Below, piece by piece: positions 43,755 to 46,334 of a stretch of DNA of 46,334 nucleotides. Position numbers and translations under genes: made by a program. The notes below the pieces were generated by a model. It did not search any database, was not told where the DNA came from, and worked only from the letters and a program-made list of their open reading frames with translations. The stretch is from Actinomycetospora sp. (lineage in GTDB: Bacteria; Actinomycetota; Actinomycetes; Mycobacteriales; Pseudonocardiaceae). The stretch spans positions 1-46,334 of the forward strand of contig JAQSWW010000003.1 in the NCBI GenBank assembly GCA_029266415.1, given 5' to 3'. Numbering within the stretch: the stretch's first letter is position 1; each line of letters starts with the position of its first letter.

Positions 43755-44534
43755 GTGACGACAGACCTGAACACCCTCCTGACCGGACTCTACGTCCACA
43801 TCGACGACCATCTCGGACGTCGACACCGGATCGGGCGACCGCCCAAGCTCACCGACGCCGAGCTGGCCACCCTGGCCGTGGCCCAAGTCCTGCTCGGAGT
43901 GCGCTCCGAGGCCCGCTGGCTGCGCTTCGTCGACCGGGTGCTGCCCGGCGCGTTCCCCTACCTGCCGGGCCAGTCGGGGTACAACAAGCGCCTGCGCGCG
44001 GCGGCACCGCTGCTGCGCGAACTCATTCGGCTGCTCGCGCTCGACACCGACCTCTGGCGCGACAACGTCTGGGTCGTCGATTCCACCCCGGTCGAGTGCG
44101 CCCGATCGCGCCCGACCGCGCAGCGCTCCAACGTCGCGGGCTGGGCCGGCTATGGCTACTGCGCCAGCCACTCCCGGTTCTTCTGGGGCCTGCGCCTGCA
44201 CCTGGTGTGCACCCCCGCCGGCCTGCCGATCACCTGGGCCCTCGCCGACCCGAAGATCGACGAGCGCCAGGTCCTGATGGCCATGTGCGACCACGACCCG
44301 GCCCTGCTGGCCACCCGCCCCGGCCTGACGATCATCGCCGACAAGGGCTACGTGTCCCGCGAGCTCGACCACTACCTCGCCCAGCACCAGGTGCGGCTGC
44401 TGCGCCCCTCCTACCGCAACCGCACACCGCGACCCGGCGAGCACCTGCTCAGACCGATCCGCCAGCTCATCGAGTCGGTCAACGACACCCTCAAAGATGC
44501 TGATGCCGCTGTCGCGGCGCTCGCGGGTCGGTGA
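43755..44534 (+). pseudogene. IS982-family transposase, 5' part (interrupted)
   Basis: The first 247 residues are a DDE transposase: RGRPPKLTDAEL-like start (IGRPPKLTDAELATLAVAQVLLG), VWVVDSTPVECARSRPTAQRS with the first catalytic Asp, AGWAGYGYCASHSRFFWGLRLHLV, IIADKGYVSRELD with the second Asp, and LLRPIRQLIESVNDTLK with the final Glu. After Lys247 the frame enters the IS110 leader and ends after 12 alien residues (DADAAVAALAGR). Joining 43755-44496 to 46080-46231 gives one open frame of 297 residues through DTLKGQLDLELHGG. GTG is the start. The gene cannot now make a full transposase. Confidence 0.93.
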
Positions 44535-44725
44535 AACTGGGGCCGCGTCGCCCGCTGACGTCGTGTGGTCTTGGTGCGGGTTGAGCCCGTCTCAAAGATT
44601 GACGCTGGAGCCTGTCCCGGTTGGGCACTCCGGGTTGCTGCCTTGCGAGCGCGAGTCTCAGACTCTTGATCTTCATGCGGGCTCCGCGGGCGACGCGCCG
44701 ATCGGGCCGCGAGAGGAGCCCAGCA
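44497..44725 (+). ncRNA. Putative bridge RNA region of the IS110 element
   Basis: The left end has the layout of a target-binding loop. GAGCCC (44583-44588) can pair with GGG and CTC in GGGCACTC (44623-44630). Between them lies CTCAAAGAT (44591-44599), identical to the left junction at 44490-44498. Next is a hairpin, GAC-GCT-GG-AGC-CT-GTC (44601-44616), and then CCGGTTGGGC (44617-44626), whose GTTGG pairs with CCAAC of the right target flank. Further on, GTCTCAG (44655-44661) equals the right end of the element (46073-46079), as a donor guide should. ATCTTCAT (44669-44676) pairs only partly (6 of 8) with the left end. The RNA ends are not determined. Confidence 0.65.
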
Positions 44726-45982
44726 ATGGAGATCATTTATGAACGAGTCGCCGCGATCGATGTCGGCAAGAAGATCATCGCGGTGGCGATACGCACCCCG
44801 GGCGAGCGCGGAGGAAAGCGCCGCCAGCAGTTACGCAAGTACAACACCTATCACGAGACGCTGGCCGAGATGGTGGCCTGGCTGGTCTCCGAGGGCGTCA
44901 CGCACGTGAGCATGGAAGCCACCGGGGTCTACTGGAAACCGATCTTCCACGCTCTCTGCGAGGCCGAACGACCGCTCGAGGTGTTGCTGGTCAACGCTCG
45001 GCACGTCAAGAACGTCCCCGGCCGCAAGAGCGACGCCCTCGACGCAGTGTGGCTGGCGGAGTTGACCGAGTGCGGGCTGCTGCGTGGCAGCTTCATCCCA
45101 CCGCAGCAGATAGCCGCGATCAGGGAGTTGACCCGCTATCGCAAGAAGCTCATCGAGCAACGCACCAGTGAGCTGCAGCGTCTGGCCAAGGTCCTCGAGG
45201 ACAGCGGGATCAAGATTGACTCGGTGGCCTCGGCGCTGACCACCCTGTCGGCTCGGGACATGATCGAGGCGTTGATCAATGGAGAGCGGGACCCCGCAGT
45301 GCTGGCCGAGCTGGCCCGCGGCCGGATGCGCTCCAAGATTCCCGATCTGACCTTGGCCTGCGCCGGCCGCTTCGGCGACCAGCACGCGTTAATGTGCACC
45401 CTGCACCTGGAGCACGTCGACCACCTCACCGACATGATCGCCCGGCTCGACACTCGCATCGACGAGGCCAGCCTCCCTTTCGCCCGCCAGACACAGCTGC
45501 TGGCCACGATCCCGGGGATCAGTGAACGCGCCGCCCAGGTCGTCATCTCCGAGATCGGCGTGGACATGACCCGCTTCCCCAGCGACGCGCACTTGGCCTC
45601 CTGGGCCGGATTGTGTCCGGGCAACAACGAATCCGCTGGCAAGCACCGCTCCGGCCGTACCCGCAAGGGCAACAGCGAGTTGTGCACGATCCTCACCGAG
45701 TCCGCGTGGGCCGCCGGTCGCACCAGCACCTATGTCGGTGCCCAGTTCCGCCGCTTCCACCGGCGCTTCGGCAAGAAGGGCGGGCAGAAGGCGGCCACCG
45801 CCACCGCCCACACCCTGATTGTGATCATCTGGCACGTTCTGAACACCGGGATCGGCTACCGCGACCTCGGCCCGGACTACTTCACCCGCCGAGTTGACAA
45901 CCCCCACGACCGCGAACAACGACTCGTCCGCGCGCTTGAAGCACTCGGGCACAAAGTCACCCTCGAACCCGCCGCCGCATAA
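44726..45982 (+). CDS. IS110-family transposase (DEDD RuvC-like bridge-RNA-guided recombinase)
   Basis: A 418-residue recombinase. The N-terminal RuvC-like domain begins VAAIDVGKKIIAVAI; acidic residues D12, E64 (VSMEATGVYW), D103 and D106 (PGRKSDALDAVWLAEL) form the DEDD set. A helical coiled linker follows (residues about 125-165). The C-terminal Tnp domain contains LATIPGISERAAQVVISEIGVD, a helix-hairpin-helix-like stretch, and LASWAGLCPGNNESAGKHRSGRTRKGN with candidate catalytic Ser303. All key residues are present, so it looks active. GAGAGGAG precedes the ATG. Its codon use is less GC-biased than neighbouring genes (for example CAA, AAG and GAT codons), consistent with recent arrival. 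Confidence 0.95.
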   Translation: MEIIYERVAAIDVGKKIIAVAIRTPGERGGKRRQQLRKYNTYHETLAEMVAWLVSEGVTHVSMEATGVYWKPIFHALCEAERPLEVLLVNARHVKNVPGRKSDALDAVWLAELTECGLLRGSFIPPQQIAAIRELTRYRKKLIEQRTSELQRLAKVLEDSGIKIDSVASALTTLSARDMIEALINGERDPAVLAELARGRMRSKIPDLTLACAGRFGDQHALMCTLHLEHVDHLTDMIARLDTRIDEASLPFARQTQLLATIPGISERAAQVVISEIGVDMTRFPSDAHLASWAGLCPGNNESAGKHRSGRTRKGNSELCTILTESAWAAGRTSTYVGAQFRRFHRRFGKKGGQKAATATAHTLIVIIWHVLNTGIGYRDLGPDYFTRRVDNPHDREQRLVRALEALGHKVTLEPAAA

Positions 45983-46063
45983 ACGGTCACCAACACCGAT
46001 CACCGACCAACCCGGCCTGCCGACCGGGTCACCGCCCCCTGCCTCCAGAACGCGCCTGGTCGC

Positions 46064-46077
46064 CATAGTTACGTCTC
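46064..46077 (+). promoter_or_regulatory. -10-like box at the right end of the IS110 element
   Basis: CATAGT (46064-46069) lies 8 bases before the element's end. In a circular intermediate it would drive transcription across the joined ends into the putative bridge RNA. This is inference from the behaviour of other IS110 elements. Confidence 0.3.
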
Positions 46078-46079
46078 AG

Positions 46080-46231
46080 GCCAACTCGACCTCGAACTGC
46101 ACGGCGGGCGCAGCGTCGCCGGCGTCGGTGCCCGCATCGCCCAACGACTCCTGGCCATGACCGCAGCCATCTGGCACAACCGCGCCACCGGCCAACCCCT
46201 CACCCGATCACTGATCGCCTACGACCACTGA
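46080..46231 (+). pseudogene. IS982-family transposase, 3' part
   Basis: The 50 codons from GCC at 46080 encode QLDLELHGGRSVAGVGARIAQ, then RLLAMTAAIWHNRATGQPL and TRSLIAYDH, the usual C-terminus of this transposase group, ending TGA at 46229-46231. It is the severed end of the gene at 43755-44496. Confidence 0.9.
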
Positions 46232-46239
46232 CCGGGTTC

Positions 46240-46255
46240 GGACTTACTCGTCTAG
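46240..46255 (-). repeat. Right terminal inverted repeat of the IS982 element
   Basis: GGACTTACTCGTCTAG, perfect inverse of 43689-43704. On the minus strand CTAG contains the stop codon of the partial gene to the right. Confidence 0.9.
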
Positions 46256-46334
46256 GTGGGGACGCGTGGTCGTCCGCCGGGTCGGGGTCTCTGGTCGGGG
46301 TCGATCCAGGGTGGGGGTGTGAACCACGGCAGCC
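46252..46334 (-). CDS. C-terminal end of a probable HNH endonuclease / DUF222 protein; 5' part outside window
   Basis: The minus strand from the window edge reads LPWFTPPPWIDPDQRPRPGG, then RPRVPT and TAG. The phrase W-F-x-P-P-x-W-I-D-P-x-Q-x-P-R is typical of the extreme C-terminus of DUF222/13E12-type HNH endonucleases in actinobacteria. Only 26 codons are visible, so the call rests on this motif. Its stop lies in the CTAG at the IS982 border, mirroring the DUF6295 gene on the other side. Confidence 0.5.
   Translation of the reverse strand, partial: LPWFTPPPWIDPDQRPRPGGRPRVPT

Follow-up and report, generated by a model that had tools for sequence, protein, structure and literature searches.

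The stretch of DNA analysed here, which we call the window, comprises 46,334 nucleotides of an Actinomycetospora sp. genome (GenBank assembly GCA_029266415.1, contig JAQSWW010000003.1, positions 1 to 46,334 of the forward strand). At the 3′ end of the window, this soil actinobacterium carries an IS110 element that consists of a leader of 229 nt, the recombinase gene directly 3′ of it, and a right end (Table 1). Like other IS110 elements, it very probably produces a small RNA that guides its enzyme to the insertion site. Compared with IS621, the best-studied relative, the two segments of this RNA that read the target appear to be arranged the other way round.

The element has an AG core at both of its junctions (44495-44496 and 46078-46079) and interrupts a gene for an IS982-family transposase, whose product, P0002, matched NF033520 with 158.4 bits (cut-off 130). 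The boundaries were confirmed by two uninterrupted IS982 relatives, L218 and L224, which contain exactly CCCTCAAAG joined to GCCAACTCGACC (also written CCCTCAAAG joined to GCCAACTC), and the empty site with its flanks joined stays in frame. Because L218 and L224 keep the exact target site, another insertion sequence, IS982, may serve as the dispersed landing site of the IS110 element. The insertion target (44490-44496 plus 46080-46094) corresponds to the conserved IS982 transposase stretch NDTLKGQLDLE. In the genome of the host itself, the leader occurs once, and neither a second copy of it nor the empty-site pattern was found. Rfam gave no match at the gathering threshold, and in E-value mode over 44300-46334 it gave three matches only, all below the gathering score; a search of viral contigs with P0001 gave no match.

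Table 1. Features of the IS110 element and its insertion site (positions in the window)
Feature	Position	Strand	Remarks
IS982-family transposase gene, interrupted, 5′ part	43755..44496	+	3′ part from 46080
Left target CTCAAAG	44490..44496	+	core AG included
IS110 element	44497..46079	+	left end 44497-44725, recombinase, right end 45983-46079; from the sequence and the empty sites in L218 and L224
P1, 5′ arm of outer stem	44541..44555	+	3′ arm 44686-44700
P2, 5′ arm of target-loop closing stem	44559..44561	+	3′ arm 44602-44604; 94.2% of cells paired, 3/3 pairs compensated
Loop with right target guide	44562..44571	+	guide TGGTCT at 44566-44571, from family covariation
P3, hairpin between the two target guides	44572..44589	+	94.9% of cells paired, 4/5 pairs compensated
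Left target guide CTCAAAG	44591..44597	+	in loop 3′ of P3
P4, 5′ arm of donor-domain closing stem	44607..44612	+	3′ arm 44680-44685; 81.0% of cells paired, 6/6 pairs compensated
P5, 5′ arm	44623..44625	+	3′ arm 44664-44666; 81.5% of cells paired; weakest helix, absent from the folding tool's own fold
Candidate place of right donor guide	44626..44635	+	suggested by symmetry with the target loop; covariation negative
P6, hairpin 5′ of left donor guide	44636..44653	+	99.4% of cells paired, 3/5 pairs compensated
Left donor guide GTCTCAG	44655..44661	+	equals right terminus 46073-46079
IS110 recombinase, 418 amino acids	44726..45982	+	intact frame
Right target GCCA	46080..46083	+	the homologues of these four bases show covariation with the right guide

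The IS110 domains PF01548 and PF02371 were found in the recombinase with 86.4 and 75.6 bits (cut-offs of 29 and 21.3), and the NCBIfam model NF033542 matched it with 246.6 bits (cut-off 140). Its motifs IDVGK, MEATG, KSDALDA and NNESAG are intact and align with the DEDD and catalytic serine motifs of IS621, as listed in PMC11208158. In a tree of 44 proteins, one branch (support 92/93) splits 35 rows, which we refer to as the clade, from nine reference rows, namely IS621, four viral relatives, ISEc45, IS5708, an R471 element and an E. faecium element; some of these references may belong to IS1111. Four rows from the own genome, whose branches were very long and whose reading frames were probably wrong, are not in the tree, nor are three rows of the clade whose translations were short. 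Members of the clade with the same layout occur in Actinomycetota, Bacillota and Pseudomonadota and in one metagenome-assembled genome labelled Chloroflexi. The genome of the host holds four more IS110-type genes (L001, L002, L004 and L005).

Guides and targets in related insertions

Searches of the tblastn type, run with differing E-value limits, yielded relatives of the element in 35 of 397 genomes at order level, 31 of 390 at family level, 15 of 394 at class level and 8 of 396 at phylum level; 32 further loci came from genome contigs, and plasmids contributed as well. A cut-off on leader conservation removed 5 of 92 leaders, and the left guide was tested on 115 insertions of related elements, the window included, whose leaders passed this filter. 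The z values reported below are indicative and are not probabilities because the permutations share leaders among relatives.

The initial annotation had proposed that CTCAAAG, the left flank of the element, acts as a left target guide where it recurs within the leader, and the related insertions bear this out. When the leader 7-mer aligned to 44591-44597 was compared with the left flank, all seven bases matched in 74 insertions, six in 22, five in 13 and four in 6. A match of at least 6/7 is accordingly present in 96 of the 115 insertions, compared with 11.3% of 12,814 mismatched leader-flank pairs, among which only 0.48% matched at 7/7. In a column scan, only positions −7 to −1 carried the signal, with z values between 7.3 and 12.9. 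Moreover, closely related elements (86-88% protein identity) show natural reprogramming, with flank and leader reading CTCAAAG and CTCAAAG in the window, GCTTAAG and GCTTAAG in L006, and GCAACAG and GCAACAG in L008. L007 carries the left target guide of the window at another locus, where the flank matches it. The leader of L027 (80% protein identity) keeps the left donor guide and the 3′ part, and its 5′ part, with both target guides, is lost.

According to PMC11208160, IS110 leaders were formerly thought to regulate the recombinase gene, and the leader could be a cis-acting regulatory or recombinase-binding sequence whose matches to the flanks are motifs selected by the protein. This explanation is extremely unlikely, given that the guide changes with the flank among the three elements compared above and that both strands of the target are read, with opposite polarity.

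The second segment singled out in the initial annotation, GTCTCAG, had been interpreted as a left donor guide identical to the right terminus of the element, and this was likewise upheld: the match to the right terminus gave a z of 20 and, among 106 insertions, was complete in 72, 6/7 in 33 and 5/7 in 1, counts that lean upward because this same match had served to locate the right end. The core is identical in the left target, the left target guide, the left donor guide and the right end as AG in 71 of the 106 insertions, TG in 9, AA in 3 and AC in 1; in 12, the left donor guide has CG and the right end AG. In L042, L163, L011, L015, L117 and their relatives, the core is TG, AC, AA or perhaps GA, and target, guides and right end change together. 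The right terminus is tandemly repeated at the right ends of L096, L102 and L041 (e.g., TTTCGTCTGAGTTTCGTCTGAG), as if sites had been reused. As both left guides covary across the clade with the sequences they would read, the left flank and the right terminus, the view of the leader as a gene for a bridge-RNA-like RNA is supported by comparative sequence evidence.

For the right side of the target, 89 of the 115 insertions were tested: those in which the left target matched in at least six positions and the right end had been located, and in addition L135, L010 and L044, which were kept by hand. An alignment-free comparison of the core and four right-target bases (RT1 to RT4) with the 60 nt 5′ of the left target guide gave an unexpected z of 8.0. 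Sliding bins of 18 nt placed this signal at −38 to −20 from the end of the left target guide (z 8.5); an overlapping bin gave 4.3, and the remaining 24 ranged from −3.2 to 1.7. At single positions in 66 leaders with an AG core, anchored on the hairpin, RT1 to RT4 gave z values of 5.5, 3.1, 4.4 and 4.2 with loop offsets of −3 to −6, and RT5 gave 0.2. The signals of RT1 to RT4 form one antidiagonal, which is the register expected for pairing, and the signal as a whole spans the core and four right-target bases. Among the AG insertions, 49 of 88 pair at 5/6 positions or more, compared with 15% of mismatched pairs.

The initial annotation had read the order known from IS621 (stem, left guide, hairpin, right guide, stem) and placed a right target guide at 44617-44626 (CCGGTTGGGC), after a hairpin at 44601-44616. 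Its basis was the complementarity of GTTGG to CCAAC of the right half-target, and the close relative L135 has the same stretch. Between the left target guide and the left donor guide, no run of leader columns covaried with the right flank in 65 leaders, and alignment-free z values ranged from −1.6 to 2.3. In the validation set described below, the proposed site gave a z of −1.3, with 944 of 1000 permutations as high. Furthermore, the stretch is retained in L135 despite a right flank that reads ACCTGGTG, and 44617-44626 lies partly in helix P5. The covariation of leader and target expected among other copies was thus found for 44591-44597 and was absent for 44617-44626. We regard an IS621-type order in this leader as very unlikely. 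Since, by covariation, the right target guide lies 5′ of its left counterpart, the pairing of GTTGG with CCAAC is considered a chance match, three bases of which (44623-44625) fall in P5.

The upstream signal could also be a product of inheritance, that is, of a leader and a target type shared by descent, in a system in which the left guide alone selects the target and no base pairing occurs on the right. Right flanks do vary between copies with identical leaders, and the signal on the right does not reach the strength of that on the left. We reject a pure left-guide system, which is unlikely, because the upstream signal survives a constant core, other elements and clustering. When only insertions with an AG core were considered (72, with 50 leaders), z was 8.0 and 0 of 300 permutations were as high. 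For validation, 27 new elements were considered, none of which had been used to find the right-guide site; 18 passed the same filter, and in the bin from −40 to −16 relative to the left guide end they gave a z of 5.0 (0 of 1000 permutations as high), the other bins being approximately zero. From this stage onward L135 was removed, so that 88 plus 18 new insertions make up the set of 106. After thinning to 22 clusters defined by shared 9-mers, the mean z was 5.4 (range 3.8 to 8.0). In addition, the single antidiagonal in pairing register argues against inheritance, as do the distant elements L182, L190, L204, L017 and L129, in which 6 to 8 contiguous bases are paired; the long contiguous matches reach 8 in L182, 7 in L190, L129 and the L117 group, and 6 in L204, an element of a Paenibacillus plasmid.

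Fold of the leader and weighing of the evidence

For the fold, 63 diverse leaders were chosen from the 106 and aligned (alignment A1). The folding tool's own consensus contains the inner part of P1 together with P2, P3 and P6, with compensatory change in 17 of 20 pairs. A fuller structure, consisting of P1 minus its six outer pairs and P2 to P6, has 89.0% of cells paired compared with 78.4% in shuffled alignments, change on both sides in 27 of 31 pairs (0 of 500 shuffles as high), and a covariation score of 0.404 versus 0.211; when it is slid by 1 to 3 columns, only 38 to 50% of cells are paired. The well-supported part of P1 is the inner nine pairs (44547-44555 with 44686-44694), and two of the outer pairs are not formed in the window. 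The right and left target guides form the two strands of an internal loop between P2 and hairpin P3, and the left donor guide takes the equivalent place 3′ of hairpin P6. The predicted order is consequently stem, right guide, hairpin, left guide, stem, inside an outer stem. A fold built from related leaders thus places the left target guide in a loop, as the initial annotation had anticipated, and puts 44623-44625 of its right guide in a helix; its hairpin at 44601-44616 is dissolved, with 44602-44604 and 44607-44612 assigned to two different long-range helices. The right donor guide that had been tentatively placed at 44669-44676 shows no covariation signal. Just 5′ of P1, a −10-like motif is conserved (44532-44538, TGAAACT; GATGAGAAT or GAAAAT in relatives), which could be the promoter of the RNA.

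We therefore favor, with a probability of roughly 86%, the reading that the leader encodes a bridge RNA with a conserved fold, a left target guide, a left donor guide and, in the loop 5′ of the hairpin, a right target guide, so that the guide order is the reverse of that in IS621. According to this reading, the RNA would be made from the circle after excision and would bind the recombinase. To the left of the core, the bottom strand would then pair with the left target guide, and to its right, the top strand with the right target guide; strand exchange would be directed at AG, as in IS621. The RNA of the window would read CTCAAAG/GCCA (the slash marks the insertion point) inside the IS982 transposase gene.

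Several observations weigh against this reading. The left target guide matches in 5/7 positions or fewer in 19 of the 115 insertions. Among these, masked bases occur in L139, the leaders of L074 and L045 are poorly conserved, and the left ends of L062, L112 and L113 probably lie outside the searched zone; 13 are unexplained. One insertion, L135 (the same insertion as L071; contig of 4258 bases), carries the guide of the window at a non-matching site, GTGAGGAAG/ACCTGGTG, with a coherent flank, and so presents the same guide at an unrelated site, as opposed to L007, whose site matches. An off-target insertion, a guide RNA acting in trans or a later change are possible causes of this mismatch. 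The right target guide of the window, TGGTCT, forms five Watson-Crick pairs and one G-T wobble with AG/GCCA, which alone proves nothing, and 31 of the 106 insertions have at most two contiguous Watson-Crick pairs at this guide. Moreover, copies with the same leader keep the left flank and often not the right one (GGGG, TTGA, AGGA and GGGA in the L108 group; likewise the L109 and L127 groups), although right flanks are kept in the L115, L121, L105 and L117 groups. The right guide is weak and matters less than the left guide because of this behavior of same-leader copies. Covariation revealed no right donor guide on either side of the left donor guide. The minimum-energy fold of the window as a single sequence pairs the right target guide with the left one and hides the left donor guide in a hairpin. 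Finally, the viral contigs considered as an IS621-type control set for covariation (5 and 27 loci) were judged unsuitable; among those loci whose match covered most of the protein, all but one were at 33-38% identity.

Guide order in known systems and its meaning

In IS621, the 5′ side of each loop is the left guide, which pairs with the bottom strand, and the 3′ side pairs with the top strand (Durrant et al., 2024, PMC11208160). The present leader resembles that of IS621 in that the RNA is encoded upstream of the recombinase, has target and donor loops, and carries a hairpin between guides (Durrant et al., 2024, PMC11208160; Hiraizumi et al., 2024, PMC11208158). In addition, the left guide equals the left half of the target with the core. 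The right target guide, a short segment in both (4 to 7 nt in IS621), is complementary to the top strand on the right, core included. In contrast to IS621, the right target guide of the clade lies 5′ of its hairpin and both left guides lie 3′ of theirs. IS621 has a 5′ stem-loop followed by two stem-loops in series, whereas both domains of the clade would be nested inside one outer stem; moreover, the core is AG here and CT in IS621, and the recombinase has 418 rather than 326 amino acids. L169 follows the IS621 order, with the left target guide at 1850-1858 and CGTAG of the right target guide at 1876-1880.

The seekRNAs of IS1111 elements are encoded downstream of the gene and carry the top-strand match first; the transposases have 330-350 amino acids and the subterminal inverted repeats 7-17 bp (Siddiquee et al., 2024, PMC11187229). 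The clade shares with IS1111 a top-strand match 5′ of the bottom-strand match. Unlike in IS1111, its guides are in the leader and not downstream of the gene, where the right end has only 97 nt (45983-46079). The same source says that ISMtsp17, a relative of IS1111, has an upstream RNA region, and it describes for ISEc21, of the IS110 type, an upstream RNA as here, in which, unlike in the clade, the bottom-strand match precedes the top-strand match. Further IS110-group elements with predicted guides, ISAar29, ISPpu10 and ISHne5, are shown in Extended Data Fig. 10c of PMC11208160. Any of these three might already show the order with the right guide first. ISAar29 presumably comes from Arthrobacter. 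In searches of one open-access library, judged by titles, openings of abstracts and text passages, we found no description of an IS110 RNA that is encoded upstream of the gene and has its right guide leading. Judged from sequence comparison, the clade would combine the RNA location of IS110 with the guide order of IS1111 and would represent a new variant, with a reservation concerning Extended Data Fig. 10c of PMC11208160. We consider it likely that a widespread IS110 clade uses a bridge RNA of mirror order, encoded upstream of the gene, with both left guides 3′ of the hairpins, the right target guide 5′, and both loops enclosed by a single outer stem.

In the two well-described layouts, as far as these accounts go, guide order is linked to whether the RNA is encoded upstream or downstream of the gene. 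A right guide that leads in an upstream RNA would mean that order can change independently of RNA position. If this is true, guide order is uncoupled from gene position, the clade adds a third architecture to those of IS621 and IS1111, and its recombinase reads the guides along the opposite 5′-3′ path. The finding would also correct the guide assignment to which the IS621 template would lead for this leader. Bridge recombinases are candidates for genome engineering, and the clade would offer compact systems from GC-rich hosts with a defined target of 7+4 nt, among which a few closely related elements form a natural series of reprogrammed targets.
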